Positions 5,385 through 47,200 of a stretch of DNA of 64,000 nucleotides are shown here, piece after piece. Location: assembly GCA_017506865.1 (NCBI GenBank), contig JAFCMP010000173.1, forward strand, positions 1-64,000, in the 5' to 3' direction. The notes under the pieces are model-generated. The model saw nothing but the letters and a program-made list of their open reading frames with translations. It did not search any database and had not been told where the DNA came from. This DNA comes from Tribonema minus (taxonomy: Eukaryota; Sar; Xanthophyceae; Tribonematales; Tribonemataceae). Both the position numbers and the translations under genes were made by a program. Positions within the stretch are counted from its first letter, which is position 1; each line of letters begins with the position of its first letter.

Positions 5385-8300
5385 CTACACATCCCTCACA
5401 ACTCGTGCAGGAGGTGACCCATGAGGCGATGAGACAGGTCCCGCACGCGCCTGCTGCTGCTGCTGCTGCTGCTGCACCTGTATCTGCGCGTCAGCCTGCT
5501 GTTGCTCTGCGCGCTGAGGCTGAGGCTGCATCTGTTGCTCATCATGGTGCTGGTGCACCTGAAGTGCGTGCTGCTGTTCTGCGTCTGAGTCGCTGTGGTC
5601 CTCTTGATCATCAGCGTCCACCTGCTTGCGTGGTGCGACAGTGTCGCCCGCAACTGCACTGCTCGGATCAGCGTCTGTCAGTTGCAGCCCCTGCCAGTAA
5701 CCGCTCTCAACAGCTTCTTTCGCAGCCTCAGACATCTTCCGTTTACGACCAGACTGACGCGGCTCCACTTGGTTTCCAGCACTGGGCGGTGGTTTGACAG
5801 CAACAGCCTTGGGTGGTCGTGGTGCCTTGGGTGCACTGGGCGAAGCGTGAGCCTTGACAAGAGGTTTTGACTTGGCAGCAGGCTTTGGCTTGGGCGATGC
5901 AGGCACTGCCGCATCAGACTTTGACTCAACAGCTGCGGCGGCAGCAGGCACTGATGCTGACTTGCACTTCTTGGCAGCAGATGGCTCAGAGGCAGCGCTG
6001 GCAGCGGCAGATTTGACCACGGTTGGCGATGCCCTAGCGGCTACGGGGGGCATGCTGCGGTCTCGCGGCGGCGGTCGCGTGTACACCTGTGACGCATCTG
6101 GCGCTGGCAGTGTGCCAGTGGCAACTGCAACGGCCGCTGCGGCGTGCTCTGCTACAGCCTGTGACGATGAACGTGTTGTGGGTCCAGCTGTGACGGTGGC
6201 TGGGACAGGCTCTATCCTGATAGGGCGGTTCTTGGGCGCATTGGGGTCATCGTCACCGTACCTCTGCGCAACAACCATACAAACAACGATCGTCACGTCA
6301 GAAACTCAGGTGCTGCATGATCGCCCAGATTTGTCACATGTTGCAAGTGCACAAAGGCTGGTCTTATGTGCGAGTTGTTGTCAATTAAATCCTAGCTCAG
6401 CTCATGAGCTGACCACCTCCATGTTGACACAGGGCGAAGGACATAATATGCTGATACAGTAGTGGCGTGCCATGTCCTCCACACAGTTGATGCAGAGCGC
6501 TCATGCATGAGCGTTTTTTGGGCAAGTCTGAGGTGCTGCAACAGCTGTTATGGTTCCAAGCGGTCATGCTGCAGTATGCAAAGGTATAGCACTGTGGCAA
6601 GACGGCAGGGCCAGCTGCAGCCAGACTGGAGAGACCAGTGTTGTGACCAACACCTCACCCCTGATACAAGAAGAAACAATGATATGAAACTTGCTAGCAG
6701 ACACTTCAACCCATGTTATCCCTCTCTGACCGCAAATGCCATTGCTTGTGCCGTGAATTCCTCGACATGCCGACACACCACATATGACTCTTAAGACATG
6801 ACATCACAAATATGAGGCAACACGAAATACTTTCATCTATTCTCATTGCATCATTGCATTGCACGGGCACTGCAGCCTGCGTGATGGCGCACCTGCTTGG
6901 CCACCATGAGAGCCTTCGTAGCCATGCGCACGGCTTGCGACAAGTTCCTGTTGAACCTGCTGGCGCGCGCCACCAGAGGGTCCTTGCTCCCTCCTATGAA
7001 TGGTCTCGAAAACCTGCCAGTCATACAACACAAACAGTGTTCTAAACGCACAGCTATTGACTAGGATCCTGGCAGCAGGCATACCTTCACAGCTGTACGC
7101 TCTCAGGTGTGCAGATTCAATTTACAGGTCTTCAAGACCGCACATGCATACATAGTGTTCAATGTCCACACAATCGCATGGTTAATAGCAAAGCAAGCAG
7201 GAAGAAAAGGCAGCATGCATTGTTAGCTAGTTGGTGCAAGTACAGCCTGCCTTGCGAAGGCACTCTGAGTTACATTAATAAGTGGCAGTCTGACTGCCTA
7301 CAGTATAAGCTTATAGAGCACTGGCTCATGTACATGTCTACTCCTCCACTGTTACAGTGCACATGTTACCTCCGCTAGCACTGCTGCGCAATGAGCGCAA
7401 GTTGTGGCTGCAAGTGCTTCACTTTCACAATTGGCCAAGCTTTGCATGTGTACCTTGAAGCAGTGAACAACACGAACACCCATTGTACAAGGCACCACAC
7501 AAGTACCTGTAGTTGACACGGTACTGGTCGTACTCTCCCATGAATGTCAGCAGAAGATGTCCGCTTTGCTCAAGTGCCTCAGCAAATGCCTGGTCCTCCG
7601 CACTGCACCAGCATCACAAAGACACGCAATGCGAGAGTCAGCATTAATGCCTCAGACATCAGCAAAATGCCATCAAGGACTCTCAGGGCATCTGTTAACC
7701 TTGTTCGGCCTTGTCGTGATACAAAGCATAAGCGTGCTTTTGTTCGTCACACAATGTTGAACTTGACAGAATTGTTAAATGCGTCACCGTGTTGAGACAA
7801 CGTCATAACATTCACAGCGCGAATGTGTGGACCCTGTCGGTGCTACGTGACATTCACAGCGCGAATGTGTGGTTCCTGTCGGTGCAAATCATGTACTGAA
7901 CTCATGTTGCTTACGTTTTATTTGATTGCAGGTGGGGCGACTGTTGGTGTTGTAAGGTACTTCAAAGTCGAACCAACAACACAGGACTGGCGCAGATCCA
8001 ACCACTGCAGAATAGGGTTCAGAGTTGAGCAGAACACTCTCGTTCAGGAAGGATGTGCAGACATACACAAATGAAAACCATGGCAGCTGCTCTTGCTCTC
8101 GCATAAAACACCACGTTGCTGAAGAAGACTTGCACACTGATGGCCATCACCAAACATTGTTTGCGCCTACATCACAACAGGTCCCATCCTTCGTGTCCAC
8201 TCACCGAACCACCAGAGCTGGCCACCAGGGGAAGCCACTGAGGCGAGACCAGACCACCTGCAAATTGCAAATACCACCAACACGCATTGCACGAAAGTAC

Positions 8301-11300
8301 GACTTGAAGTGTGTGAAAGTGGAGTTGTTAATATTGTGCATAACATGCACTCTCATACACATACACACCACATTGCTTGTGCGTGAATGATGGGGAAAAA
8401 TATGTTCAGTGAAGCATGGATGGCTGTGCAAACAAAGAGGTCAGCAAAATATTCACTAACGCATATCCATTGCTGTTTGTGCGACCAGGCCTGGGGGAGG
8501 CTGGCTACCTATAAGAGTGAAATATCATTATTGACTTGAGTATAGTGGCTGCATTCACAGTGAGTTTTCATGGAATTATGTGCTGCTTCCCACCTGCAAT
8601 GTGCAGATTCATGCAAGAACGATTTCAGATCAACAACGTTTTTTATGATGTGTTGCGTGCGTTGACACACAATGGCGCACGTGCAAGAAGGACGCGAGCT
8701 GGCTGAAGAAGGGGGGGGGGGGGGGGCGCAGCTTTGAGCACCAAAAATGGTTGTGGCTGCGCTTGTGAGCACTTCAGTAGCTCATCCCCTTGCTCAGAGA
8801 GCGCAGGGCTGTGAAAGACAACCTCTGTTAACGTGTTGGCGCATATGCAAGGTGTAGGCACTCATTGCAACAAGCAAGATTTTGGCAGGCACAAGTGATG
8901 CTGCAAGCACACTTGTTGGTATTCATTCAGCAGTAGTCCTTGAACCAAGGGGGTCTAGAAAAGAAAAGTGGGGACGCAACTCCCCGAAACGCATGGTCAG
9001 ACCATCCCTACAAAACACTTCTAGCACACGCGCGTGAGTTATACACCACTATTGCCTGCGCAACCTTAACAGATGTTGGAGACTGCTTATCTAGCGTTCT
9101 AACGCACCCGGCCGCACCTCATAAGGTAGCGTGTAAGACGAGCACGGCTCATTTGTTTACTGCTGCTTGGTCGGCAGACCCCCCCGAAGCCCTCCTGAAT
9201 GAGTGCTCTCGCCAACCGGGACCCCTAACCCGGCAATAACTTCAGAGCAGCCTCGTTGCTGCCATGCAAGGCCGCATACGAGAAATTGCCGGGTTGCACC
9301 CCTTAACGCGCGCGTAGTGCTGCAAAACATGGTTTTCGCAGTGCTAAATGAATACAAAAAAGTGTTTTTTATATCGTGATGCCACGCTTTTGTAGGCCTG
9401 AGTTGGCGCGCGTTTAGTACGGGGATTTTGGGAAGTTGCGACCCCACTTTTCTTTTCTAGACCCCCTTGCTTGAACTGTCATGGTACTTGAGAGTGCATA
9501 TTATCCTTGAATCCTTAGATTCTTGCTGTCTGGTCAAGTATGATGACTCATGACGGTCCATCACACGCATGAGTGAGAAGCGACATTATGCGGTAAGCAT
9601 GCCAACTTGAACTCACAAAGCCTGTACTCACCTCGCCGGTCGGTGTGCACCTCACGTTGAGTTTGCGATTGCTGGCTCCTGTGGATTCCACACTGCGTCC
9701 CTGTTGGTCCTGCAGTTGCAACTGTGTAGGCAGAGAGGTGCAGACCACGGATGATAACGATGTAAGCCACACTGCCACAGCACAAAAGAGCACTGACAAC
9801 CACCTAGCATTGATGGTTTTGTGTTGATGTGCCATGGCAACCAGCCTGTCAGCACTGACGCCTTACTTGACGTGAAGTGACTGGCATTGACAGGACAACA
9901 CAACAATGTCATCACAATCGCAACCAACCACAGTAGACATTTAAGGAAACCACACAGCACATCGGCGTGAATGTAGTGCATGGTAGCAGGGCAAACCTAT
10001 CATACTCCAAAATGTTCAACACGTTTGCTTCCCACAATTTGAGGCTGCTTCCACGGCTCTGCTCTCTCAATGCATCATGAAGGTATGCACGTTTAGCACA
10101 ATTGAGTGGAGCACTCATTGGCAATCAACACAGTCTGACCTGACTCAGTAGCCTCTCGGCCCTGGTGCTGAAGCAGTATATGGCAAATGCCACCTGCGGT
10201 AGCGTCCGCGCCTTGGTTGCCATTGACACCCATGCAGCCCTACAACACAGACCGTGGCGGCAGGTACAAACAATATTTGGTGAACTTCAAAGCATTTTTC
10301 AAGTGACAACACAGCGCCGAGGCCTTCATTTATAATGAAACAGAGTGACTTTACCAGCCATTGGCAGCAGTAAGAACATGCACGGAACATGGCTATGACA
10401 AGTGCGGCATTTTGTGATTGCCTTCCAGACGCACTGCCTCCTGTGTATCAAATTCCATATAGATTCCAAATGCACACGCTATGACGACCGCAATCGCTAG
10501 CACAGCTGTTACTGTGCAGTTGAACGTACTGATGCACCAACACGAGCGTCAAAGTCGGTGTAACACGTGTGCTGTGATCTGCTTGTTGCAACTCTACCTT
10601 TCGGTCTGTTGTGCAGACAGAGCTCCTTGCAGGTCCTGCTTGAGCGAGCCAAGTGCTATGGAGTCCCGCTGCTGGTCCCAGTCAAAGTTTAGTGCATGCG
10701 TGTCTTGCGCATCACCAGCTCCGTCTTCTCCGCCATCAGCATCAGCTGTGTCATCATCACCTGCCTCATCCTCGCCATCTGCCATGCCATTGTCGCCTAA
10801 GCAATGTGTCGTCAATACCAGGACAACAAACAGATAGAGCGCATTTGATGGGCAGCAGGCACTAACAAAGCACACATGACAGCAGGTTGAGACCAGCATG
10901 GAGCTGATAGAACAAGTATCTCAATATATAGGGGCGATGTGTAAAAGTGTGCGTGTAGGAATATAATTATCACTGTAGAGCAACTTAACCATGGAATACG
11001 GCTGCTTTCAGCAGACATATGAAGCATAGCACAAGCATATATGTAGATACTTAGGTTTGTGGAGTTGTCTCCCCCTGCCCAGCATCACTCCCTCACTGTG
11101 CTTCACGTGCTTTTTGAGAGCCGCATTTTAGCTGCCATTAAGCGGCAGCAGGACAATGACATGTTTGTTCAAAGCAAACGCAAACTGCCGTCACTACATC
11201 AACTTCAACATATGCAAAAACACATTCAAATGATACCACCCCCACCAACAGGTATCCCCACACAAGCGACACACACAGTACTGACTTGTCTGGTCTTGGC

Positions 11301-14300
11301 CGTCTTCACCACCACCGCCCTGGCTTGCAGCATAAGCTTTGCCATTGTCAGCGGAGCTGGCAGCTGCAGTGTCATGAGCAGTGGCGACAGCAGGTTTCTG
11401 CTCCTGGGCCTCTGGTGCTGCACCAGCAGTGCCATCCTGTGACAGTAGAAACAAATACACAATGCGGCCAATATTAGCATGGTGCGATATGAGAATGCAC
11501 CAGTACTCTAATTCAATTTGACTGTCCTGCAGCATCGCTTGACCGCTATCATATAATGTGCATGTCTCGTTTGCACTGTAAGTCAAGGGTGGCAGGTGAC
11601 ATGGAATGGCATGCAAGTTTACTCTTGAGTCATGAGGTTCATCTGTGTAGCTGCATCTACCCAGTACATGCCCATCTTGCTGAAGGTAATGGCTCCATTG
11701 CAGTTGCAGACACCATTATTGCGCCAGATGATATGATTGGTCAAAGCATCAGGTCATGCATCGACTGCAGCATCATTTGACAAACATCACTGGAAGTGGA
11801 AACCACCCTTGTTGCCTTTGCGCTCGCCATACCGGATGCATTTTGCACAAGGCTATCACAACGCTACTGGCATGTACCTGGGTGGCAGACTCACAACAGC
11901 GCATCCTTATCTGAGTACGCGTAGCAAGGTCATGACTGCGACAAGGGCACGATTGTTAGCATTGCTACCAGGCGTCAAGGCCACCACAACCATCTTCGAT
12001 GCACTCAATTCAGAGCAGCAGCACGACCTGTTCTGTACTCGTACTTCAACAGCAGATGACTGTACATACCCATACGGTACTTGTACAAGAAGGGGATAGT
12101 CGGCTTGTGACTCACCACATCCATACCGGCCGGCTGAGCCTCCTCTGTCTTTACCCCATTTGACACATCGTGCGCTCCACTGCCCTCCTGCACAGTAGCT
12201 GCGCCTCCCACCGCACCTACTGCAGCCGCCGCTGCACCGCCGCCGCCGCCGTTCATGGTAATACCCGCCCCTGTGCTTGGTTCTGCCTCAGACTTAGCTG
12301 CACCTCGCCCCACCCGCCCTGTGTCATGGCTGTCATCACCTTGCACCCTTGTGACGTCCACCATGAGCTGCTCATTCTCATTGTCTGACTGCTCGTGGCT
12401 GCCTGCGCCTTGTGTGGCTGCTGCTGTGGCTGCTGCTGCTGCGTCTTGTGCTGCAGGTGTGCCCCACTCATACGGCGACTCATAGTTAATTACATCCTGA
12501 TCGTCCTCTGTCGCACGCATGCATTCCCAGTCAACGGTCATGAGGATACCATCAGCCCTGCCCGCAGTAGTGAGGCTCTGCAGGTTCACCATTGCTGCTT
12601 CCAGAGCTAATAGGGGTTGGACCTGTACACACAACATAACACACAGACACATGGGAGCACAGATCCCGTTTAGGCTCACAACACTGTTTCTTACCGAGGC
12701 TGTCAGCAATCTTTGGAATTTGGGAATGAGAGGCAGATCAAAGCCTCTCTTACCATGAGAGCTGCATTGGATACTTCATGGACATACTTGAATTGACACA
12801 CATTGACACACGCCTCAGCAAACACTCATATGCTTGCCATTGCATAGCCGTGTCAACCAACATCAGTATGCCTACTTTATGCAAACTCGTGGTTTGGTAC
12901 CGATTAACTTCAACAAAATATAATGTGTTCAAGTATCAAGGTGACTTTGCTCACCAGGTCCTGTGGGTGGTGCGCATGCTTTACATTAAACCTCCAGCCT
13001 GCTCGATTGTCATTGTCACCTCCATGTACACCAGCCCCCAGTTTGACAGCCTGCAAGGGTGAAAGCGGCATCGTGTGTGTAAATTTTATGTGGTGCGCTT
13101 CTGCAAAAACGACAGCAAACTATTCAAGACTGAAATACTTCAAAGTAGTGGTAGGTGCCACTGTACCATTCACAAAGGCCATAGCCCTGCTGATGTTGTA
13201 CTACTGGTAGCACAAGTAGAGCAAAGGCGCACTGACATCATTACTGGCGGTTCTTGCACACGTTCGGTCTCACTGACTTAAGCCTGACATATATATCTGT
13301 CTACACGTATGACACAGGACATTATAATGATGGCAGCACAAGTTAGAAGCAAGTAGTATGCAACTCAAAGACCTGGGCAGCTAATGCAATTTGCACCTTC
13401 AAGTGCTACACAGAGCACAATCACAGTACAAAAACTGAGGCATTATTTACATATAGTGGTGCTTTGCATGCACATGTGGCAGACGTAACACATATAGTAA
13501 AGCACTGCTCTGCAGTGACACTGTGACAGATATCTCAAATGCAGCTGCCATGCGAACTGTCGCTTTCATGTTGCCATCAGCTTGTGCACCTCACTCACTC
13601 ACAGCTTGCAAATGCCACACAACCAACCGCCCCAAGTTTTGATTTACAGTCCCTTTGTTGGACATGTCCAGGATGTCCTGTCATCATGGTGCCAACGCAG
13701 CACAAAACCCGTTTCATGATATGCCCAGTTGCTGCACATCACCAGTTACCTCTGTAAATATTCACATGTCAACAGCAGAGGAGTATGCAGCAGGGACTGT
13801 GTACCTGGTCCTCAATGCCTAGCAGCTCCATCTCAAGATGGCCCAGGATCTGTTTGCTGTCGCAAGAGCTCAGTGCATTCTGTGCCCAAGGCGGTTGCAG
13901 GGGCCTGTACTTATCACTCTTCGATGACTCGCCCAGTGAGTTGCGCTGGCTGGCAACAACCTGACACAATACGACATACGGCAGCGGAGAGTGAGGATAA
14001 TTCTTTTTCCAGGCAACACCACAGTGACGCAATAACCCGAAGGGTCGACGTGGTGAGGAGGGGAGGGACGGAGGGGAGGAGCGCGCGCGCCAGTGACGCC
14101 GATGGCCACCATGCCATTGGATCCGCATGATGCGATGCAACGGTTGACAGCTGGTAATGGCTTCAGCTGAATACGGATGCATTAGTACATATAACTTCAC
14201 CTACCCACATGCTTCACATTTCAATGCAACCATCAATCAAGTTGCTTGAGAGGGTAAATGTTATTGATATGGTGCATATAAGTCACACATATCGCTACCA

Positions 14301-17300
14301 CACATACATGAAAGCGAGCAGCACACAACTCCCGTGATGATATATCTGATATCAGAAAGGATTGTGCATGGTGCTGGCTGAAGGCAAGATCGAGCAATTG
14401 GACAACCTACATAAGTGTGGCAACATTGTGACCTGACCATTCTGTTTTAATCTGCTTTAAACATGGCGCGCGTTGCAGGTGATTTGAATTGATGACTGTA
14501 ACTGTACCTGTGCCACCAGCCTGTGCGCAGCGGCTCAGTTACATTGTCTGACCAGCTCCAGGCAAGATAAGATCACAACGAGCATTTCCTGGCAACTGAG
14601 TACCCAAAAGTGAAATGTGAAGGCATGTTGACCAGTGTCAAGGGATTCTGCAGGACCTTGACATACTCTGACTGAGCAAGCACTGACCTTGGCAACCCCA
14701 GCCGTAGCTATTGCTGTGGTGGTGGTGTCTTGTATGACCTTGATGCGTGAAGATCGGCGTGGCTCATCCAATGCTCCTGCCTCCGCTGCGGCCGCCATTG
14801 CTGCTGCCATGGCTGCCTTTCGCTGTCGTCAGCAAGTGTAAAACGATGTCGACGCTCTCATCACGATGCTCTGTTTACAGGGGGTGACACATTTTTGTTG
14901 CCCTTGCTGCAATCATGCAGCCTGCTGCATACTTTGATGTAGCAGTACAAGAAACACATCACACTCATCTATCAGCAGCCATTATACCATCATCATATGT
15001 TCGCCATAACACAAGTTTAATTGGATTTGCCATCACAGGCCCACGAGTTGATTGGCCGCAGTGCGTCATCATGTTATCATCAGCAGCTGTCGACGTCAAG
15101 ACATCATCATCTATCAGCCCTGCACACATTGCTCCATTGAGACTCGGCTTGCATTTCAACATCAGCACAGTCCTGCCTGATCCCTGTTTGTCCTGGGTGA
15201 TCCACTGCATGCGCATCACTATCAAAAGCTCAAATGTCCGCAACTCCAATGCGGAGGTGCACACAAGGAGGCAGGCCGGCCATGCATGTAGTTCGAAGTA
15301 TGCAACCACATGGCGCTCAAGCCAACAGCAAGAGTAATGGTGACGCCTGCATAAGTCCGCAGCAGCAAGCCACAAGTACCTCTGCGCGATCCTGATTCAT
15401 GGGTTTTCCCAGGCCTGCCATGAGCTTCTCCAGCTGACCCTCCAGGGACCTCTTCAACGCACTCTGAGACGGAGAACATCAAGTCGAAAACCAGTGCTAT
15501 CACAATCAGATCAAACACGCGAGAATAGAGCCAGATCTACAACATACTTCAAGGTAGTTCATTGCACCAAGTAACATATGGTAAAGGTACACCAAAGGAG
15601 GGCACTGACTCGAGAACACGCCTTCCAGCTCCATGCATCCTTTGATGTTAACAAGCTCATTTGCACCATGAGCCTTAAATCACCTGAAATCCTCACCGAG
15701 GTGCTGCTACCTGAAGCTGCATGCATTCATGAAGAGGCACACCAGGTGGCATTCTGCTGCGAATGATCACTTGCACACAATGCTGAAGCATACAAAGTTG
15801 TATGATGATGAGAGGTATGTTATCAGGGCATGCCAGAGTGCAGGGAATGAGACCCTGAACACAAAGCTGCAGATTATGTGTGATGACCAGTGCAGAAATT
15901 GGTATTCACCAGTGAGCATGCTTCACAAAGAGAGAAGCTGCGTTCATGCTTCTCTCAACCCTGGGGCTTGGGAATACGCACAGGCCGTGCAGAGAGGAGA
16001 CAAAGGTAGACCGCCGCAGGCAGCCCGCAGGCGCCAGCGTAGGCGCCGCGCCAGACCAGAACAACGAACAGTAGTATTTACTAGGAGATCCAGAGAAATT
16101 TAACCGTTATGTAACGACCATTCTCAACATGTGGTCGCAGGTACGTCATCACGTACCATGCCACTGATCAGTGCTGACACTGAATTATACTACTAGAATA
16201 TGAGTGAGGTCCATATTCCAACAGGGGATACTAACAGCAGGAATAACCATAAGAGTACCACGCGCTGTCATCAAATCATCCCAGATAGGCAGTGGCTCAC
16301 CTCTCTAATACCGCGTGCATCCAGGCTCTCAATGAGCTCTGTGAGCTCCGCCTGGTGTGTCAGCTGTGCCCATTGGGCTGGCTCCTCCTCCGGTGCTGGT
16401 AGTAGTGGTGCGGCAGCCTTGTCACCATCCTGCTGCTGCTCACCTCCACCGTCGTCGTGTGACTCATCACCTGAATCCGCCAATGCCTTGGTTGGTTTTG
16501 GTCGGCACTCAATGTGGATGTGTGCTGGGTCACTGGGGAAACTCCAGTACCTGCATTACCAAGCATACGAGGCTTGAGCCCCTTTACTAGTAGCTTGTGT
16601 GGAATCACGCAAATGTGGTGTCCATTGTCAATTGTAGGGCATTTTCATGGAGAACACCAGACCGGCATAGATGCATCCACTGTTTGAGCTCCCATTGCGC
16701 ATCATAAGTCAAGGTGCAAGTCCCCTCAATAGTGTTTGCAGGAAGTCAACCTTCAAGACCCTCATGATACCTTCATCTTGATTGCACACAGCCCGAAATC
16801 AGCATGTGTCTGTCTCCAACCACAAACTTGCAAAATGCCAATTAAATGATGCATTGTTCAACCTGTTTATTGCTTCTTGATGCTGCCAAACATACATACC
16901 TGTTCCGGTCCCTGTCCATGCCCAAAGGTATCCTACGTGGCACGCGCCCCTTCTTGAGCGCCTTGGCCAGTGCGTCTTTGGCTTTGCGCACGGCCTCAGA
17001 TGCCACTGCCAAGTCGCGCTTGCTTGTCTCCAGTGCTCCTTTCTGCAAGTGACACACATGAGTGTCAATGACACATGAGCGCACAGCACTTCCATTCATA
17101 AGCCAAAGATGCATTGTTGTCATTGGTGTTGTTGTCATTGGTGTTGTTGTCATTGGTGTTGTTGTCATTGGTGTTGTTGTCATTGGTGTTGTTGTCATTG
17201 GTGTTGTTGTCATTGGTGTTGTTGTCATTGGTGTTGTTGTCATTGGTGTTGTTGTCATTGGTATTGTTGTCATTGGTGTTGTTGTCATTGGTGTTGTTGT

Positions 17301-20300
17301 CATTGGTGTTGTTGTCATTGGTGTTGTTGTCATTGGTGTGTGGTGGTGTGCATCACATCCAGCAACAACACATTCTGTGATTGATGGACGTAATGTGCAA
17401 ATTTTTGGATGTGTTTCATCTTGATGCAGTCACACACGACCATCGTATTGAGAGCTGTCTGCAGATTATTGTGAATGCACATGCCATGATTATTCAGGCT
17501 CAAATTCTAACTGCGCACACTGAGCTTGCACACGGCCAGGGCAGGCAGGCATCCCATTCCAGTCTCATATTTCCGATGTATGCTCATGTTACATGAGGGC
17601 ATGTATGTATCATGACTGATATCAATGCAACAATACACACCTGCGCAGCTGCTGCCCGTTCTGCTCCTTCCGCCTTCTTCAAACTTGTAGTTAGCGCAGG
17701 TATTTGGTTCTCCACCAGGTCCACCGCATCACCTACCTGTCAAGTCAGCACACATGCAGCACTCATATGAGCACTATGACGTTCATACAGCGACAAGCTA
17801 CTTGTGGCACAATGTGTGCGGGATTGCAATTAAGTAGCATGACGCCATGTCTTCCAGTCAGTTACACGAGTACACTTACACAAGTACAGTTACACATTGG
17901 GTCCAGGCCATGTTACGCTGTGAAGGGATTTCACCAAGCAATATAGCTGCTCACAGTATCATCCCCTGCTTGCCTGCAACCCTTTATCAGTTGACTGACT
18001 CAAGCAGTAGCAGTTGTGTAGAATATCAGGCAATTACATGATGTTCCTCTCTGATGTACTACAGTGCACTTTTGTATAGTCTTCACATGGCGACTAAACA
18101 AGTGACTGCCTCAGGGCGGAAGAGACTTCTGTAGTACTGACCTTGTCCTTGACAATGGGGGCGTCTATAGCCTCATCCACCAGAGCCCTCAGCACCCTCA
18201 GGCCCTTCTGAGGCCCAAGCAGCCAGTATTCACCACTCTCCATCTCAGCTACAGCCTGCTGCAGTACATCACTGGTTGGTGGAGTGTGTGCTGGGCCAAC
18301 ACCTTCACCACCTTCTGTCTCCACTGACGTAGTGGGTGGAAACTTGGCCGCAAGGGCCATGTGGTACCTCTGCAGTGCGCCTAAGAAGCAGCGCAGCACC
18401 TGTATAAAGACAAGAGTCGCATCGCACCAACATTGAATGCGATCACTAATTGACATTGGCGAATGTGAATGTCTCATTCAGTCTCATTCAGCTGGTCGCG
18501 GTGGACTACATGCATGAGGGGGAACTGCCTGGTGGCATCTGAGTGAGGTTGTATATGTGGCACAGGCAGCATAAACCAGTATCGTATTGTATACACAACT
18601 GCAGCCACTTATGCAAGTACGGCAGGTAGGTAACTTTTGTCCAGAGCATGACACATTCCTCCTATTTGAATGCAATCCACAGATATGTTTGAAAATACAC
18701 AATCAGAGATAAGCTACAATCTCGAGTGCTAAACATACTTTAATCACGCTACCACCCACCTTGATGTTCAAAGAAGTTGATCGCAGTTTACATGTACTTC
18801 AAACTAGGCAATTTGCACACTCCTAGTTGTGTTCGGGCAAGCCTGAGGTAAGGCACTTGCTGCAGCACAACACCTACAGTACATTGGCTGGACATCTTTC
18901 GTCCTGCAGCTGACGCCAATGGGATGAGATTGATAGTGAACAATGCTATACTTTGAAGAGTGTAAACCGGAGTTCACATGCATGCGTGCATGCGTGCACA
19001 CAATGGGCATAGCAAGCAAGGGCTTCAAATCAACAACTGACAACGACATTGAAATGTCCATTTGTGTGGCATGCGAAAAGAAAGGTGACAACACATTATA
19101 TGAATTGGACAAACTTCAAGTCACTTCTTATCAAACTAAGCTGTGGGTGCAAGATACTCAGCACACCATTCATCGAGCTTGAAGATACGAAATCATGTCA
19201 TGATTCATATTCAAAGTGCGAACATGCAGTATGTAATGTCTGAATAGTGATTACTATTCCTGCAGAACATGAGCTACCCAGCAGCACTACCTCAACACTG
19301 CCTGATGTTGATGTAGCTCATGAGTCACATGGCATGTCCATGGCGGGCTGCATTGCGTTTAAACGGATGGCGCCGTTGTACGAGTGGCAAATGTCAGAAA
19401 TGGCGGAGCGCTTTGACATTCTACAACGTACAAAGACAAAATGTTAGACCCAGCTCGCAGTCACACCACAGTACCCTACATGCTACTGGACATCGGCAAT
19501 GATCACTGCAACGCTACATCGAACACCACATTGTACATACACCTCACCTCAGGCCAGGTGGCAGCGTTCAACACATCCCCCAGCATCTCTCTCAGCTCCT
19601 CCAGTGTGTCCAGGGCATCCTCCTCATCCGCCACTTCGCCTGTTTGAGGCACGCGCCCTAGCGCTGCCCTGAGCAGTTGCAGGTGCAGTAGCGACAACAG
19701 CGTACGCGACGCCAGTACAGGCTTTGACTCCGTCGCTGAGCCGCTGCCACCTTGACCACTGCCACTGCCAGCGTCCTCCTCGTTTTCGCTACTGTCATGG
19801 TCATCGCCGCTGTCATTGACATCACTGGCATCTCCGTGCTCCTGCTCATCAGCAGCAGCTTCGCCCCCATCAGCCGCATCAGAGTCTTCTTCCGCCTGCT
19901 CTGGTGGTGGTGATGCAGCTGGCGTGACGCGACCATTGCCATTGACATTGCCATTGACATTGGCTGTTGCCCCCCCTGATGGTGCAGGTGACGTTGACCT
20001 GCGCCTGCTCTTGCTGGGTGCGCGGGAGAATGCCAGGACGGCGGCTTGTTGCAGGTCTTTCAGGGACACTGCTTGAACTCCGAGCACGCTTCCAAAGGCG
20101 CGAGTGAAGTCCCATACTGCCAGTAGGTCGCCTATGCTTTCTGCAGGCAGCTGCAAACAACAAGAAAGGGCACACATCATATACCACTAGACTATAGCAG
20201 CCCCAAAATGGAGCGTGGTATTTCATGAGGGTTGCAATGATTGTTGTTAATTAAACAACTGAGCGATCGCTGACTCGCATGTATACTGACTGCAGCCAAA

Positions 20301-23300
20301 AATAGGTATTTGCATGCATTGTGGCATTGATGCATGCCCACCAAACAATACGCCACTCATCATTATTCAAAGGTGACTAATAAGTGCTGATCATGCACTG
20401 TCCACAGCGCATAGCCGTTTTGGACTAACGCACTTTCCACTTGACAAGATGTTGCTGGCGTCACTGACCGTGCCAATCAAGAGCCTTTGCTCAGAGTTTT
20501 CTGGATGTTCCTCATGGCGTCATTGTCATTTGGTGACATAGCTTCAGTGATGCTCGAGTCAGGGCATGTTGTTACAAGATCTTGCGATGTTGTCAATTGA
20601 TGATTTTTGTCCAGCGTCCCTGGTTGACTTGAAGAAGCTCATCCCAAAGTACATCAATAAGATGCAGGTTTGGTCCAGAGCCCTGGCTGAGTTGCATAAG
20701 TTCCTCCAAAAACTATTTGTGAACAAATGCACTGTACTTTTAGCATATACATAAGCCAACAAATGCACCACCTGCATTGCACACTGCACAATGACAATAA
20801 GCAGGGCGTTGCACCAGTCCATGTACTTCTATGTATGTACAAAGCATAGTCAGTTTGCATATCAAATGTCACAACACTTTGATGCAAGCTGTTGATGCAA
20901 GCTGACTTACCGGTAAGGTGTTGGTCAACTCCGGTCGTGGTGGTAAGCCACTTCCAGCCCGTGCTCCTGCTCTGCCTTTGCCCTTAGCGCCTTTCTTTGG
21001 TGTGCTCCCCCCACCACTTGACTTCTTTGCATCGATTTCCGGGAGCAGTGAATCCTCACAGGGGAAAACAGGCTGCTCTCCCTCCGCCACCTGCAGAAGG
21101 TAAGGGATTAAATAGGCCATCATGACATCAATCAAATACGAAATATCAGTCAGTCCCTGCTGCTTGACTCATGCTTCATATGTCAAGTGTGTATGCAGAA
21201 GCATGTCCAGTGTCGTCCACACGTAGTATGACCACATGAGGCATGCTTTGTGGCAATGATCATGGCCATCACACTTCATGTTTGACATATCAATATATGA
21301 TGACAGGCACGTCACCGGCGCTGCTACAACAGCTAAGAGGCCATTGTGTGACAAACAATTGCAGTGCAAAGCAGTTTCAAACTAAGCTACACATCAGGAG
21401 AGCATGCATATTGATGTGCATACTTCTCATCTGCAGTGATGGAATCGCAGTACCATACCTTCAGGGTGCACACTCACACTGCCATGTTCAAAGACACATA
21501 CCACCATACAGTTACCGAATCTGAGCATGCGTGTGTGCTGCATGATTAGTCTACGCATGTCAATTGACCCACTCAACAACATGTGCACACATCACGACTC
21601 GGTGAACTACAGCTTTGATGCTGTTGGGCGGTTCAGCCAATGCTGGCACTCCACATTGTGAGGCAGCCTTTCACCTCTCCATTCGCCTTTGCTGCAGCCA
21701 ATGATGCACGCTTTTCCCGCTTGGCTTTGTTCTCCCTCTCCCTAGCCATGCGCTTCACCTCTGCTGGAGACAATCTGCAGGTAAAGAGGTTGACAAGGAC
21801 TCGATTATGACTTGCAGCAGCATACTGTAATAGCTGGCAGCGCATAGCACAACAATATGAAATGACTTCTGTTGCAATCAGCAAGCAAAAACGCGAATGC
21901 ACAACAATCTTCATGACAATACTCAAAAGCGGCCATGTCCACTGTGCACTTTGGCACAAAAAAGCCCTAGCTGCAGGACTTACTTGTAGGACCCCTTCGA
22001 CTTTTCAAGAATGTCGCCCTTTGCTGTGAGAGTCTTGATGGCGCCTGCAACCTGGTTTCTGTGAAAAGCAGAGGAGATGCACCAGAGAGCACACGTGAGT
22101 GCAGCTCGCCAACAACAAGACAAGAATACATACCTGCCACACAAGCATGACAGCTGCTACAGGTCCATCTTTCATGACGCCAACCTTTAATACGCACTCA
22201 AGGGATTACACTCACAAGCTTTTGAGAGCTCATAGCACGATGACACTTGAATGGACAAGTCAACACAGTGGCATGGCCCCTAAAGTGCACTCACCGCATC
22301 TTAGCCATGTTGAAGGCCTTGCTCCATTCACTAGCACTGAGCCATTTGATGATGCTGGGTCCACTGCTGCCCTTCACTTCCTTGAGTGCCTGTATAGCAG
22401 CCTTCACCATTTCAGTGTACGGAGGGTGCTTGCCAGCAGCGCGTCCTTCAGGTCCTCCTCCTTGCTCTGTGGTAAATGCGGCACAGAACCGTACATGGTT
22501 TGATGTCAACTCATGGTCATGCTGTGCCAGACAGAAACATGCAAGGAAGCGTGACTGATTTGCTGAGGCATAGTGCAACACCAGCAGCATTGTTTGCCTT
22601 TGCTCCGCACGCATGACACAGTTAAAGCATCATCAAGAAAGCATGTGGAACAGACCTCCAGCATCCGCGGCTCCTGCAGCAGTTGAAGTTGAAGAGGCCT
22701 TGGAGGCCGCCTTCTCCAGGTCTGCCTGCTCCTTCCGCACCTCTGGCGTAGGCTTGAGTACCTGCGCCAAGCAGGAAATGAGCAGGCAATCATCAGTTGC
22801 GTGAGCGCAGCACTGTGCAATGCAGCCACTGCACCTCATGTATCCAGAGCAGCAGTAGGCAGCTGCCCGCTGAGCCCGGAACCTGCTCAAACATACCTGA
22901 TCAGCAGGGACAACGACAGTCCCCAGCGTCTTGGAAGCGCCAGTATACTGAATCCGATAGACTGTGGTGCGCACTCGCTGAACGCTGTGGTAGTCGACCT
23001 GGACAATGACGGCATCCCTGAGGCTCCGGGTGTGATCCGGCCCATCCTGAGACGAATAAACGTAGGCAAATCACATTGCGTGCTGATGAGTGGACGCAAA
23101 CGCAGCACTCCTGTTGCAAGTGCCAATATATGATATCTGCAATTACGCTCTCACCTTGGTCACAACTATGACCTTGTCTCCCTTATTGAAAGCCGGCTTC
23201 GCAACAGCTGCCCGGGAGGGCTGCTGCCTGGTGGTGCCCCCACTGCCTCCCTCTCCACCAGAGGATCCGCCACCTTGACCTCGCCCCGAATCAGCACTGG

Positions 23301-23313
23301 CACGCCTTTTCAT
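5385..23313 (-). CDS. Large chromatin protein with H15, DDT, WHIM/WSD and PWWP domains
   Basis: Twenty-eight exons join in unbroken phase from ATG at 23313 to TAG at 5385, giving 1,696 residues. Exons, 5' to 3': 23313-23155, 23046-22897, 22761-22656, 22466-22295, 22058-21984, 21774-21675, 21090-20911, 20150-19548, 18399-18142, 17736-17641, 17042-16900, 16550-16301, 15463-15380, 14822-14688, 13960-13805, 13050-12955, 12786-12754, 12622-12116, 11436-11286, 10796-10598, 10239-10140, 9721-9632, 8257-8205, 8166-8112, 8004-7961, 7602-7507, 7013-6893, 6263-5385. Domains: a Tudor/chromo-like barrel at about residues 43-105 (KGDKVIVV); an H15 winged helix at about 151-222 (HPPYTEMVKAAIQAL to KGSYKLS); DDT from 315 (LPAESIGDLLAVWDF); WHIM1 near 500-530 (TWPE-VLR); WSD/WHIM3 near 671-690 (PLGMDRDRNRYWSF) with a helical tail; PWWP from 1282 (VVWSRLSGFPWWPALVV); then a Ser/Pro/Lys-rich, polyQ C-terminus. 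DDT plus WHIM is the hallmark of ISWI remodeler partners (ACF1/BAZ, plant RLT), so a nuclear role in nucleosome spacing or chromatin reading is inferred. Least certain are the AAG acceptor of the 33-bp exon, the 8112 donor, and exons 8004-7961 and 12786-12754. Confidence 0.85.
7809..7888 (+). repeat. 42-bp tandem duplication in an intron
   Basis: Two head-to-tail copies start at 7809 and 7851 and share CATTCACAGCGCGAATGTGT and CTGTCGGTGC, with a small difference in the middle. They lie in the DDT-PWWP intron between exons 7602-7507 and 8004-7961. The repeat has no coding potential. Confidence 0.8.
8711..8726 (+). repeat. Poly-G tract in an intron
   Basis: Sixteen consecutive G bases lie in the intron between the first PWWP exon and the TIR element. 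The tract is a simple homopolymer, a likely length-variable site and a possible sequencing weak point. Confidence 0.9.
8946..9469. mobile_element. 524-bp TIR DNA transposon derivative (MITE-like) with 7-bp target duplication
   Basis: The two ends are inverted repeats of about 46 bp. The left end starts CAAGGGGGTCTAG and the right end finishes CTAGACCCCCTTG. The first 28 positions match without mismatch and the next ~18 differ at a few sites. Direct repeats CTTGAAC flank the element at 8939-8945 and 9470-9476, as expected for a target-site duplication. The interior holds no convincing transposase frame, so it is non-autonomous. It sits inside the DDT-PWWP intron between exons 9721-9632 and 8257-8205. 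The 7-bp duplication does not point clearly to one superfamily; hAT usually makes 8 bp. Confidence 0.88.
17110..17341 (+). repeat. 18-bp minisatellite, about 12-13 units
   Basis: The unit GTTGTTGTCATTGGTGTT is repeated head to tail with almost no variation; one unit carries A for G near 17257. It lies in the DDT-PWWP intron between exons 17736-17641 and 17042-16900. Since 18 is divisible by 3 it is open in several frames, which creates spurious repetitive ORFs. It is not a CRISPR array: there are no spacers and the DNA is nuclear. Confidence 0.95.
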
Positions 23314-29500: not shown

Positions 29501-31194
29501 GTATAAACGTGCTATTCACCTGTCGTGGCAAAATCAGTGCAGGTGTGCCCACTACCATCAGGTAGGCGCGGGCACAACCAACTCAATGGTGCAAAATACC
29601 ATGTGATGGCTGTACTGTGTTGTGGTCTGGAGCCCAGGTATGCCTCAAAATACAGTCATCCGATGCAAGCAGACCACCACCCTTCCCTGTGGTCGCTCGA
29701 CAGCAGTGCTGTGTACAGATAGGGTACGTGTCAGCTCCACGGTAAACCTTGCGAGTGGATAAGCCATTGCAACAGATCATACGCACTTGCCTGTAGAATG
29801 GGACCAGTGGCTTGACGGCAAAATATACGTCATCAGTGCACAGGCTCCAGCGCATCTTGCGCGGCCCCAGTCTCCAAAACGGCAGGATGGCACCCCACAG
29901 TCCCGGGTCATCTAGAACGCTCATGTGGTTTGAAACCGTTAGCAGCGGCGTGCCTTCTGTGCGATGATCCACATGGCGTATGAGCCCGCTCAGGTTGGTC
30001 ACACGCACTCTGTTGAGCACCTGCACAGTTTTGAGCAAGCACATGCACCTTAGCAACGCCGTGGAAGCAGCACCACACAACTGCCGTGGCGTGCAGACAT
30101 GTTTTGCAGAATGGTTCGTAACAGAGACAAACTAACGGAGAATGTCTGTCAAAACTGATACACTAACCAAATTCGAATCACAACGCCAAATATTTGTGGT
30201 GGCCCTGGGTACATGCATACGTGTGTACACAATATACTCTATGTACCAGCCTAGACACGACATGAGTGCGTTGTACACACCTGAAGCATAATGCGAAACA
30301 GGATCCCCACAATCCCAACTGCCCAAAAACTGCCCACTCGCTTTCCAATTGCTTTCAATACTCCCACTGGTCCAGTGCGGGTGCTGCCACTCGTCCCATC
30401 CGCTGCAACGCCAGTGTCAGGTGCTGCTGTGAGGGGACACATGTCATCAGCCACAGGCAAGGTCAAGGGTGCAAATGGTGCTGGTCATGTGCATGAGTTG
30501 ATGGGAACCTGCATCAGATGAGGACACATTTCAGGGCAAATGGGCACACTCAAGCTACATGCAAGACAGCATTGCTTGCGCTGTTGAGTAACGTGGAATA
30601 TGCACAGCAGTCCCATGTTGAAGTTTTGACAGAAGCAAAATTGTACCTACATTGTAAAAGTTGCTGACCTGGGCTGGAGCGCTTGGTATTTCCCCCTCTT
30701 CTCCGTGTTGTCCACCGCCGCCTCTTCGCCTTTGCAGAGTCGCCACCAGCACTCTCTCCATCGCCTGCTACATCGCCTGCACCGGCTGATGCTGCCACAA
30801 TGGCACGTGTAGTGCGGCCTGCGCATTGAAGCACGCAAGCAAGGAGGGTACGCCATGAGCTCAATCACTGATGTCTACACACCAAGATCAACGTGTTGTA
30901 GCATCGCCCACATCAGCATCATGATCCCACTGCAAAAAAGCATGACTACTGCACGTCGTTACAAGATCTAATCTAGCTTCACCAACACGCACCACGTAAT
31001 GCAGCTGCAAACGCTTGACGAGCATCGCAGGCGGCCGACGACGCGGCAGTTGGCGACCCACGGTGCGGCAGGAAGCTAGCACGGTGGGCGAGCGTCCCAG
31101 CTGTGAATCCTTGCACATGGACGATGATGCTGCACACCGACAGCACCACCACCAGCATCGCAACGCGCGCCGGTCCCATGCGCTCCGCTACCAT
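26576..31194 (-). CDS. Tafazzin-like phospholipid acyltransferase with N-terminal targeting sequence
   Basis: Eight exons join in phase to 409 residues: 31194-30993, 30818-30669, 30426-30281, 30020-29791, 29279-29138, 28473-28343, 27862-27757, 26698-26576. The core matches the tafazzin branch of the PlsC/LPLAT family: TPLLTVSNHMSVLDDPGLWG (H198-x4-D203 catalytic motif), RWSLCTDDVYF, YRLGNALPIKR, then GGWCHIFPEGRV (FPEG about 277-280), GVGRLVARCSSTPVIVPMYHIGM and VGEPV. A hydrophobic helix precedes the core (VGSFWAVGIVGILFRIML). These enzymes move acyl groups between phospholipids and lysophospholipids; tafazzin remodels cardiolipin. Unlike mitochondrial tafazzins, this one begins with a signal-peptide-like segment (VAMLVVVLSVCSIIVHVQG/FTAG) and about 100 low-complexity residues, suggesting ER or plastid delivery. 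The intron after 29791 needs a GC donor (ACAG/gcaagt). The last acceptor (GTGAG/CGT) is the least certain junction. Met at 31179 is an alternative start. Confidence 0.88.
27677..27694 (+). repeat. Interstitial telomere-like array (CCCTAA)n
   Basis: About three units of CTAACC occur in the last intron of the tafazzin-like gene. The repeat corresponds to TTAGGG on the minus strand. It is too short to be a chromosome end. Confidence 0.8.
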
Positions 31195-41249: not shown

Positions 41250-44200
41250 TTACACCTGCTGAACAGATGCATTCAGCGAAGTGCTTTGGCTGCTGTCCGC
41301 AGCAACGGCTGCCTTGCCACCATGCCTCTTGTGCACCTGGCGCAAGACAAAGCGCTTCACCGCCTCAAATGCTACATGAACAAGGCCGCCCGCAATTGCA
41401 ACGGGCAGGGCCCACAGCGGAAAATTGTTGGAGCCCAGCACGGTCTGCACGCCGGGTGTAAATGTGACAAAGAACGCAATGGCAGTGCTGAAGACCATTG
41501 CCAGGTATGTCCACTTGTTGACCCATGCCGCAGGAGAGCAGAAGGGGTTGGGGTCTGTGGCCTTGAGAATGTAAGCAGTGAAGAACTGCGTGATGGCGAT
41601 GGTGAAGTAGTAGGCTGACTGCACGCTGTTGAGTATGTCCTCCTGCCTGTCGGGTGAAAAGGTCTTGCCCTCTGAGGTGAAGGTGTCACCATTTGTGGCA
41701 GGGAAGTACTGAGGTGCTGCGCCCATGAGCGATGACGGGTGCACACCGTAATGGTTGAACACCTGTAATAGGAATGAGAGCCACGGGCACGTGGTTCACA
41801 TAGTTGAGAACGCTTGAACACAGTGCATCAGCATTGTGCAAACCTTGACAGCTTGTTCATGCCGCCTGAATGCACACCACAAATATGTGACGCAATTGAA
41901 GAAATTTCAGCTGCTGAAACCTGGTGATCACAGCCCGGGTAATCACACTGGGTGATCACATCGCGGACCACACCCCCAAGTGAGGGTGCACTACTCTTCA
42001 CCTATTCACATGAAGCTGTAAACATGAACACTGGTCAGCAATCACAGAAAATGATTGCATGACATGCATGTAGTACACCACAAATCTGTGCCCTGCGCAC
42101 AAAGATGAAGCCCAGATTAAGCCCTGCAAATGCAGGGCTGTTGACATGCAAGGCTATACTTCAAAGTGTACTGATTGTTGCTGCTTCTATATGCTTGTCA
42201 TGTTAACTCCCCACTGCACTTGTCAAGCCTGTTTGCAATGCGATGCAAACATTGTTCATGTTGACAGTCGAAAGGCACTCAGCCTCAAAATATTACAGCC
42301 TGAGTACTTGGGAACATTGCACGCTAACTGCTGTGTGTCAAGTTCCATCCTGCGCTGCAACAGCTGCACCTTAGTGTAGGCATGTCACAGGTAAAACTGC
42401 AAGCGCACGTGATGAACACAGCCATACACTGGTGCATATGACTGCGATCTGCTGAAATGCAGCTCCAGGAAAATCATTGTCATAAAATGGTGCGCAGCTG
42501 CTGTAGGCATGTGTTGCAAGCCGGCTCATCTGCGGCTGAGTCAGTGCTACTAGCATGTTGTTGTTTGTGTTGGCGACAAGGACCTGGTGATGAGCTAACG
42601 ACTGAGAGCACCAGTAGGAGTAAGATATCCATAGGTTGGGCCGGAGCGCACTGGCCCTGAACAACCGCACTCAACATGGGGCAGCAGATATGACATGAAT
42701 TGCACATTGTGGCAGTGAGAGGTGGGCAAGATGACCCTTGTTTTATCATTGAATCTGTTATGGCACACGTTGGTAATATCAATGCACTTCTAAGATTTCT
42801 TGGAGATTACATAGTCATAGATATTAGTGCCGATAATGATGCCTTTATTAGAGTTGAGCAGGAATCATTAACACTTCAGACAATCCACGGGGCGTAATTT
42901 GAGCACTCACCAGGAAGTAGTTGACAAGGCCAGTGGCAACTGCGAAGAAGCCGTTCTGCACAAAGGCGAAGATGACACCCTTCCTGTCCACCAGCCGCTC
43001 GTCTCCAGGGTTGGAATGTACGTCATCCTTCCCACCTACAGAGCAAATGCAAAATGAAGAATCTTGCTGAGATCAACAAGCTGGTCAATGAAGGGTGTGA
43101 GTACATGGCTGCAGAGTGTACAGACTCATGGCATTCAACATCTTGATTGTAGCGTTGTGTGTGATGAGCATTGATCACTTTGAAGCATCAGCCGTGCATC
43201 CAACACCTGTGGCATGGCAGGTGTCACGCTTCAAAACGCTTTTTACACATCGGGTGCAAGTCTCATCCTGACACTTGCCGGCCTGCGCTCGTTCAGTGAG
43301 AACAGCGCCTGTCGCTGGAAGCTAAGTAAGCCCCACGGCCAGCAAACACATGCCACCATGGCTTAGGTACAACGTTCACTTTAATCACGCGCGAGATGCG
43401 GAATACATTAGCTGGTACGCAGCGATCCATGATGACCTAATTCAGAATTCTCTGTAGAAATTGACATCCTCAACACACATGAACCTAACGGTCACTGCTG
43501 TTCAAGCACAACGGCAATGACACTCACCACTCCTGAACGGCATCTTGCTGCTGCTGGTAAACCTGATGACAGCCCTGTAAGCACGCGTAGCCAGCGCGCC
43601 CAGTGCACCCTGACTCTTCTCGTACTGCTGCTCAATCTCCTCTTCGTCTGCTTCAGCTATCTCAATCTGCGTCAGATCCTGCAGCCGCCTCTCCTCATCA
43701 ATATCCACAAGCACATCACGCGGCACCACAGCCCGCCTAGGTGGCCTTGTCATTACGTCTGGGTCCGCGTCCTCAAAGGCAAATGACATGACAGGGGCAA
43801 TCTCTGTCCCAAGGTCTGCATGTCAACAACAACCACAAGCACCAGGGACAAGCGGCAGGCGTGAGATCACACAATGGCTGTGATTATAAGGCTGCCAAAT
43901 CACAGCCAGGCACAGAATGGCATGACGTTGAACATTGTGCAAGTCGTGCACGCAGCTATGTATAGTTGCAGAAGTAGAATACGAGGTCAGAATGAACAAG
44001 CAACTATAGATCCATACCTGATGCGCTCATGTGACTCATTTGCATGTGACTCAGACCCATCCATACACATGCTTCTACCACCTTACTTCATGAAGGGTCT
44101 GAGCGTGCAGAAGGCCTTCTCAGAAAAAGGCTTCGGAGCGGAGACATTGTTGCGCCATATTGGACAGCAGTTTCCATGCTTTTGACAGAGTCATTCAAGT

Positions 44201-47200
44201 GATTACTTTACTTACTAAATTGTGCTTGGTGCGTGCTGCATGACCAACAACACACTGTGCAGCCACAGTTACTGCTGCAAACTGCTACAGCATCAAAGTG
44301 ACAACATGCTGCATGAGTAACTCATGCAGTGGTTTCAGTACTGCCTTCAAACCAGGCTTGCTTTGTTTGAGAATATCAGGTGGGTCATCTGCTTTACAAA
44401 TGTCGCTAGTCATGGGACTTGAGTCGCGGCACAAAAGCGATCAATACATTAATCAGCGCTCCACGGGCCAACTGTTGTCTTTTGGGAGACAAGTGCAGTC
44501 TACATTGGTAGCAGAAAGTATTCACAAAGCTTGAACCAGTAAGTAATCCAGGCACCAATGCAGGGTGTACATCCACTGCAGTTTAAGTATGATGTTAGCT
44601 GCAACAACTCACCGATGAACAGGATCAGGAAGGAGCTCATGCCAAGTGGGAGGCCCAGTATGAGCAGCAGTATGGCAGGAAAGATCTCTCCCATGATGTG
44701 CCCCAGTGTGCAGCAGACGGCCTTCTTCATGTTGCTGAAGATGATTCGTCCCCTCTTGATGCCCACCACTACAGAGGTGAAGTTATCATCCAAGAGCACC
44801 AGGGATGCAGCTTCGCGGGAAACTTCTGAGCCGGTGATTGCCATTGCAATGCCCATGTCTGCACGGCGCAGTGCGGGGCTGCAACAACACAGCACACAAC
44901 ACGCATGCAAATGCAGCAGGTGCATAAGGTGATCCGCAAATCGATATGGTGCAGAAACGTGTGATGGTGGATCAACAACTCATGAGGCGTTGCAAACTTG
45001 CAGCAAGCTTTTTGTATAGTAAACCGTATTATCTATAGGCAACTGTGACAAGTGTAGGCGGTGGAGTAGAGGAAGGTGGGACAGTGTTCACTGAGCATAC
45101 AGACACAGCAGCACCTTAGCGGTGAGAAGGTCATTTCATAACATGTCATTTCATGATACCGATAAAGTAGGCCTAGGAAACCCGCAGTGCCACATGCTTG
45201 CAAATTGTTGCGGCGGCTAAAAAGATGGAGTGCAGATGTTCATGCTTCGGGAGCATATGCTATGAAGACATGTCTGATACAGCTATTGACCCTGAGGTGA
45301 TGACGAACACACCTGTCGTTGACGCCATCACCAATCATGGCTACCACATGGCCCATGGCTTGAGAACGGGTCACGATCTCCAGCTTCTGCTGCGGTGATG
45401 TGCGTGCAAAGACCACCTCACGCTTTGACAGCGCCTGCACACCAGGGGCACAACGACAAAATGTTGTGATTGTACTGTTGTTAGAGAACATCTGCATGTG
45501 TGAAAACCAGAACAAGGCATCGCTTAAGTATTGCGCGCAGAGTGCAGTACTCTTGCAGCACTGCGTACCCCTTGCTGTGAATTTGCTTTGTAGAAGGTCA
45601 ACAAGGAGGCCATCCCGCTACATGATGCAGGCATGCTTATCAGGTGCAGCTAGCGCTCCCTGTGATCGCAGATCAAAGTAGTGCAGGGTCCTAAATTGAC
45701 GATGGCATTGTCTCATCAAGTGGCGTTTTTGATCGTACCTCTGCCCACTCGTCCTCTGACATGGTGGCAAGCGTCTCTCCATGCAGAACCACCGCCTCAT
45801 ACTGGTCAGGCTTGATCTGTAACAGTCATTGCACAACAACAACAGCGCAGAGCGGTCAACCAGATGCACATGAAGAGGTGATTGTGAGGTCAATGGCACA
45901 CATCTGGCAGCAGGCAAATTGTGATCCACGTCATCAGTGACTCTCAACTTGTGCCAGTGCTAGAGTGCAGTGCAAGTGTGCTGGGGGGATATGTGAGATC
46001 TTTCATGACGATGCAGTGATATGCATGCTGGTGTGATGCCACTGCAGTGCATGCCACGGGGGCTCAGTGTACAAGTCACCATATACGAAATTATACGTAT
46101 CAACAGAGCTGCGGCAAGGCGTGTCACACGGCAGTTCCATTCACTTCAGCAAAAGTGTACCAGTCCTGAGACATCAATGATAGTAGCCAAGACTAACTCA
46201 CCGTGTCAAGTGGCAGACCCATCTCCTTGGCAGCGTTGGCCCTGGTGCGGCCACGCACAATGTGCACCTGCAACAGGCGCAACAAACCAGATCCCAGCAC
46301 ACAATAAGCACTTCAACATTGTGCATGATACCTCACCAGAGGTTTAACCTGACTGCACCAATTAGCTATGGCAGTGTTGCTCAAGGCATGCAAAGATGAT
46401 GGCTGGTAAACAGTGATGCCACCTCATGTGGGATGATGGTGAAAACACATGTTTACAACAGACTAATGGGTTGTTATCCTTGCAGCATGATCAGCTACTC
46501 GCAAAACTTGCATGATTAGATCTACAGAAGTCTATGAACGCGATGGCAGGTTAATTCTGACGTGTACTTCACTGCATGCTTCTTGATGCAAGCATGCAAT
46601 TTTCACAACATTTTGACTCCTGCAGTGCAAATACCAGTTGGCTTGGGCCACTACTAGCACACACATCCTGCCAGACGCATAGATGTACTGCTTCAAACTA
46701 CACGAACAGGGCATTATCATACTAACACTAAAGTAAGTGATAAGCATAGCGAGCACAGCAAGTGCAAGACTTTGACAAAGCAAGCGCACAGTTGTTTGGT
46801 GAGGGGCAAAAGCAATGCGATGTTGGCCGCTTACTCAGCTACTTCAACTATGCAGGTGTGACGCACCTCACGAGCAATGGCCTCAGCAGTCAGTGGGTGG
46901 TCACCAGTGATCATCATGACCTGAATGCCGGCTGTGTTGCACTCATCTATGGCCTGAGTCACACCTGCATGACACAAACAGTGCACAACAGAACATAAGA
47001 TCTTGATTGTTTGCGCCCCAGGTAGAAGTAAGCGAGAATTGATGAAAGTACAGCAACGTTGATTGCACTCATATCGACTGCGTGAACTGAACACTTTTGA
47101 GTCGTCCTCTGCTCCTGAGGACTTGCATGAGGTACAGTAATCATGACCAGCTGTCAACACCCGTCAAGTTGATCATATATAATCATTGGTGTTCAGCACA

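Follow-up and report, generated by a model that had tools for sequence, protein, structure and literature searches.

A gene on the minus strand of the 64,000-nt stretch of Tribonema minus DNA analysed here (the window) appears, from its spliced sequence, to encode one polypeptide with four chromatin domain types, a linker-histone winged helix (H15), a DDT domain, a WSD motif and a PWWP domain, presumably from a single transcript. We consider it probable that the product serves an ISWI remodeler as a single large accessory subunit, built on the ACF1/BAZ/Itc1 plan. The reading as an ISWI partner, first made in an earlier note on this DNA, is well supported: both DDT and WSD exceed their Pfam cut-offs, and SLIDE domains and an ISWI ATPase are found in the same genome.

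Gene structure

The gene was spliced from GT-AG junctions picked by hand on the minus strand, and the frame was then checked by script. The boundaries and strand reported in the earlier note were borne out, with the ATG at 23313 and the stop codon ending at 5385 (Table 1). The claim of an unbroken frame from ATG to stop was likewise upheld, as the only in-frame stop of the 25-exon model is the terminal one. What did not survive is the size of the model: 28 exons and 5,091 coding nt had been given, and 25 exons and 4,959 nt fit better. GT-AG boundaries are present at 24/24 introns, which range from 108 to 1,374 nt, and G+C content is 59% in exons against 47% in introns.

Coding potential was estimated with a leave-one-out codon score; because the model's remaining exons supply its training set, the test is partly circular. 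The used frame scores best in 22 of 25 exons; in the exceptions, exons 20, 22 and 24, a different frame outscores it. Codon bias is weak throughout exons 20-24 (used-frame scores of 0.19, 0.20, -0.05, 0.21 and 0.21, respectively) and strong in exons 18 and 19, which score 0.63 and 0.62 in a shared frame. When two segments of the protein were searched against the whole genome, matches were restricted to this gene (6/6 and 6/6). A minisatellite lies in intron 10 at 17114-17339 (15-bp unit, 15.1 copies, 99% match). Its unit is divisible by three and translates as repeated MTTTP, in a frame that stays open into exon 11.

Table 1 Coordinates of the gene, its domains and associated features in the window
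Feature	Position	Strand	Details
H15-DDT-WHIM/WSD-PWWP gene	5385..23313	-	25 exons; CDS 4,959 nt; 1,652 aa
MSL3-type chromo-barrel, probable	22714..23190	-	aa 42-119; exons 1-3; PF22732, sub-threshold
Linker histone H15 winged helix	21768..22428	-	aa 152-223; exons 4-6; PF00538
DDT domain	19635..20141	-	aa 318 to about 486; PF02791; split by acidic insert
WHIM1-like motif	18157..18252	-	aa 565-596; PF15612, sub-threshold
WSD (WHIM2 and part of WHIM3)	15440..16937	-	aa 669-772; exons 11-13; PF15613
PWWP domain	6911..9637	-	aa 1269-1354; exon 21 (final two codons) and exons 22-24; PF00855
Exon candidate for the 28-exon model, best read as intron	7915..8004	-	stop if included alone; PWWP score falls with micro-exons
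MITE-like element, 536 bp	8940..9475	.	within intron 21 (9631-8258); inverted repeats and copies

Domain architecture

The whole 1,652-aa protein was searched against Pfam profiles, with matches listed up to E 5 and filters that drop most matches above about 0.1. Four families exceed their cut-offs, namely WSD (58.6 bits), linker histone (50.1 bits), PWWP (37.9 bits) and DDT (29.1 bits), and the order H15-DDT-WSD-PWWP proposed in the earlier note therefore stands in one frame with all four past threshold. Among the five Pfam families listed at E up to 5, WAC, homeodomain, HARE-HTH, PHD, bromodomain and zf-4CXXC_R1 are absent.

The H15 match spans the full profile (1-74 of 74). Comparison of the first 1,379 residues with PDB sequences returned histones H5 and H1.0 among the matches (E 0.004 to 0.02), as well as the PWWP domains of MSH6, DNMT3B and NSD. 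Linker histone H1 is a small lysine-rich protein; despite its H15 domain, the protein described here is unlike H1, being large and carrying other domains and acidic stretches. The linkers differ in charge, with a net +7 over residues 225-316 and a net -27 over residues 1011-1185.

A Tudor/chromo-like barrel had also been suggested ahead of H15. An MSL3-type chromo-barrel match is indeed present there, scoring 21.3 bits (E 2.7e-4) on the excised segment and 14.6 bits in the whole protein, both under the PF22732 cut-off of 28, and among PDB sequences the barrel best matches MSL3 (E 0.054). In the alignment with the MSL3-type barrel, one of the four positions that we take to be cage aromatics is kept, so that the methyl-lysine cage looks mostly lost. 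A search of the N-terminal 612 residues against NCBIfam gave a single match, far below its cut-off.

The DDT domain is interrupted by a 101-aa acidic, low-complexity insert (residues 355-455). Its first part accounts for the whole-protein score (cut-off 22); once excised with the insert removed, the domain scores 42.5 bits over profile positions 1-56 of 58. The WSD match covers positions 2-66 of 69 and includes a GMD triplet at residues 674-676, which by our own reading of the sequence would be the published GxD signature. The excised WHIM1-like piece reaches 12.1 bits (E 0.15), under the cut-off of 19.1; the WHIM part of the earlier claim thus holds through WSD, with WHIM1 sub-threshold. Against PDB sequences the WHIM-WSD region gave chance-level matches only, as did the region just before the PWWP domain in both the Pfam and PDB sequence searches.

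The PWWP match runs over profile positions 1-91 of 93 and reaches 42.1 bits when the spliced piece is scored by itself. Its first two residues come from exon 21, which links the domain to coding sequence that precedes the long intron. In the cage alignment, Phe and Trp are retained in GFPWWP and the third position is Met (TFMG, compared with FFFG in NSD3); we take these three to be the aromatic-cage positions. Given the Met at the third of these, where NSD3 has Phe, reading of H3K36 by this PWWP domain is uncertain.

The PWWP junction and intron 21

The 132 nt by which the 28-exon model exceeds ours (5,091 - 4,959) are accounted for by 8004-7915 (90 nt) together with micro-exons of 42 nt in total within the PWWP domain, and by this arithmetic these are presumably the extra exons of that model. 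Joining 8257-8205 straight to 7602-7507 keeps the phase without extra exons and yields the full 42.1 bits. Inclusion of 8004-7915 without micro-exons introduces an in-frame stop. Four micro-exon combinations totalling 42 nt keep the frame open, and micro-exons could also add up to other totals. The four open versions score 34.4, 34.3, 33.9 and 33.2 bits for PWWP, ~8-9 bits under the direct junction, and on this drop the 28-exon model is disfavoured. We prefer the direct 8205/7602 junction because it has the top score and requires no micro-exon. A long insertion notwithstanding, three of these four still cover the profile from position 1 to 90 or 91. The PWWP domain of yeast Ioc4 is also described as containing an insertion motif (PMC8934638), so a rare isoform including the surplus segment and micro-exons may exist.

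Intron 21 is the longest of the gene (1,374 nt) and houses a MITE-like element. The 50-nt terminal inverted repeats of the element (8940-8989 and 9426-9475) are 90% complementary, and at least 8 places elsewhere in the genome align over at least 450 of 526 query bases at 88-96% identity. By eye, GTTCAAG flanks the element on both sides, a possible target-site duplication. Minus the element, the intron would be ~840 nt long and fall inside the size range of the rest. The gene split that had been considered possible between 9.7 and 8.3 kb falls away, as this stretch is intron 21; since the transposon explains its length, no split is needed there.

ISWI motor and related domains in the genome

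The genome was searched by single ORF or exon, an approach that misses domains split by introns, such as the window's own PWWP. By single-ORF search, DDT was found in this gene and at one other place, on contig C10, and WSD over its cut-off in this gene alone. H15 gave six matches, on C513, C1, C79 and this gene; PWWP gave four, all outside this gene; and SLIDE gave five across C549, C31 and C53. PDB comparison covered the ATPase of C549 alone among the three SLIDE contigs. It scores 591 bits against a SMARCA-family chain, which we take to be SNF2H, and 541 bits against yeast ISW1, compared with 422 bits for yeast SNF2 and 387 bits for CHD1. As the first two exceed the others, we assign this ATPase to the ISWI type. 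A SLIDE match lies about 5 kb downstream of it on the same strand. HAND is a usual ISWI domain; it had no match in the genome search, which was silent on its controls too.

The C10 locus, around 329320-329478, is a second DDT gene with two sub-threshold WSD pieces. Ten chosen ORFs surrounding it contained no H15 or PWWP, which split exons could hide. Its G+C content is 63-67%, compared with about 50% around the window, and G+C is uneven between the loci compared. A scan of viral contigs with exon 8 returned 26 pattern matches and no relative.

Neighbouring genes and other loci

A divergent plus-strand gene runs from 23662 to about 24440, leaving an ATG-to-ATG gap of about 350 bp. We take it to be thioredoxin-like; its leader reads ...CTAQGF and its active site CRAC, the usual thioredoxin active site being CGPC. 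By eye, minus-strand pieces resembling a P-type ATPase and a tafazzin-like acyltransferase lie at about 41250-54042 and 29583-30131, respectively.

For PsbO, encoded on contig C224, the five best PDB chains score 372-362 bits, a second group of four scores 323-305 bits, and the others score 225 bits or less. We take the first group to be diatom, the second to include red algal and cryptophyte chains (two cryptophyte chains at 322) and the remainder to be green and cyanobacterial. The PsbO leader reads GGASAFQTPF; an ASAF-type leader motif is a feature of complex red plastids. These PsbO results disfavour a green algal origin, and the host is probably an alga of the red lineage with a complex plastid, such as a stramenopile or a haptophyte. 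Light-harvesting matches are less clear: a fragment is most similar to the long multi-repeat chains of 9vfj, followed by assorted chains with green types among them. One LHC fragment had no match at E 1e-10.

Discussion

A working model for the protein can be drawn from its better-known relatives. The DDT-WHIM core would wrap SLIDE of the ISWI motor, after the AlphaFold predictions for Itc1 and ACF1, in which the DDT and WHIM motifs engulf that domain (PMC12093815). In the same work, DNA binding is also predicted for WAC, an N-terminal module attached through a flexible linker. WSD and GxD have been linked with ISWI (PMC11789628). The H15 domain, on its basic linker, would take the place that WAC has in ACF1 and Itc1 and touch linker or dyad DNA, through which the complex might sense linkers or compete with histone H1. 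In MORF, the second winged helix can be aligned with H1/H5 and contacts the nucleosome at the dyad (PMC9908889). At the other end, the PWWP domain, on a long acidic linker where ACF1 has PHD and bromodomain, would tether the complex to nucleosomes. Its target is perhaps H3K36-methylated gene bodies, as for Ioc4, whose PWWP domain reads H3K36me3, binds DNA and brings yeast Isw1b to gene bodies (PMC8934638). The chromo-barrel might contribute an extra chromatin or nucleic-acid contact. We infer ISWI binding and methyl-lysine reading by this protein from such analogies, and on the same footing the simultaneous contact with linker DNA, motor and methylated tails envisaged in the earlier note is plausible.

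The continuity of the gene is central to this model. The same stretch could instead hold two adjacent genes, a chromo-H15-DDT-WSD gene ending near exon 17 and a PWWP gene beginning at exon 19 or 20. Such a division would be compatible with the weak codon bias of exons 20-24, with in-frame methionines in exons 19 and 20, and with an open frame that continues past exon 17 into intron 17 until a stop at 12005. Nonetheless, it is at odds with phase-matched junctions at all 24 introns and with the high codon scores of exons 18 and 19 in their shared frame, and the PWWP residues already start in exon 21, ahead of an intron whose length the MITE accounts for. We regard two genes as unlikely. A decayed gene, or a mis-assembly mimicking a fusion, is a very improbable source of the architecture: no second copy was found in the genome to confirm the structure, but the frame stays open for 1,652 codons and domain profiles cross several exon junctions.

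For a single intact gene, the identity of the motor has still to be weighed. The DDT-WSD protein might partner a non-ISWI motor, for example another SNF2-type enzyme; H15 and PWWP would then serve as general attachments to chromatin. The undetected HAND domain would suit this reading, although that search missed its controls as well, and SLIDE matches occur on three contigs, of which the PDB comparison covered C549. Since the ATPase on C549 is clearly of ISWI type, and the strong WSD contains a GxD triplet, we find a non-ISWI partner improbable and retain the ISWI subunit as the best explanation. A more ambitious version of it is doubtful and is put forward tentatively: the protein might represent a new ISWI subunit class of a red-lineage alga in which a linker-histone domain, a DDT-WHIM core and an Isw1b-type PWWP domain share one chain that displaces or imitates H1, holds SLIDE and anchors the complex to transcribed chromatin. 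If true, this would be a natural one-chain union of ACF-like spacing with Isw1b-like targeting.

It has long been asked how ISWI enzymes sense the length of linker DNA and how they compete with H1, and a subunit with an H1-type domain beside its motor-binding core would make this testable directly by single-domain deletion. The protein would also show that a PWWP domain, found in yeast on a subunit of its own, can be part of a DDT-WHIM chain, and would support a general plan of DNA-contact module, motor clamp and chromatin reader. Such a plan is already known from BAZ and plant proteins (PMC8536118).

The earlier note knew of no described family with this domain set. Our search agrees, in that it found no description of linker histone, DDT, WHIM and PWWP in one protein; it covered published papers, mostly their titles and abstract openings, and included neither the main survey of WHIM proteins (Aravind and Iyer 2012) nor eukaryotic protein databases. 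The claim needs one qualification, as a winged helix near DDT is already known in the form of HARE-HTH in BAZ and plant HB1 (PMC8536118). Within the literature searched, the individual parts are known and their combination appears undescribed.

Comparison with known systems

MOZ/MORF acetyltransferases are large chromatin proteins of another enzyme class than ISWI partners and are not known to carry DDT or WHIM. They resemble the present protein in having a winged helix that aligns with H1/H5; theirs binds the dyad (PMC9908889). A winged helix-turn-helix is associated with DDT in plant RLT/HB1 and in BAZ proteins, where it is of the HARE-HTH type (PMC8536118); here, by contrast, the winged helix matches the linker histone family PF00538, and both HARE-HTH and homeodomain are absent by Pfam. 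Plant DDR1-3 (zf-4CXXC_R1, DDT, WHIM1) are DDT/WHIM proteins too, and DDR1 and DDR3 bind ISWI orthologues (PMC10538959), whereas zf-4CXXC_R1 is absent by Pfam from the Tribonema protein.

ACF1/BAZ1A and yeast Itc1, of the ACF and ISW2 complexes, likewise have a central DDT followed by WHIM and an N-terminal predicted DNA module on a flexible linker (PMC12093815). Unlike ACF1, BAZ and Itc1, the protein described here is without WAC, PHD or bromodomain in Pfam and has H15, a probable chromo-barrel and PWWP. For the last of these the precedent is yeast Isw1b (Isw1, Ioc2 and Ioc4), in which a PWWP domain is linked to an ISWI motor (PMC8934638 and PMC7892562). Ioc2 is described there with a putative PHD, and Pfam found none in the present protein. 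The PWWP domain of Isw1b, in the same accounts, is N-terminal and sits on the separate subunit Ioc4, whereas here it is C-terminal and lies on the same chain as DDT and WSD.
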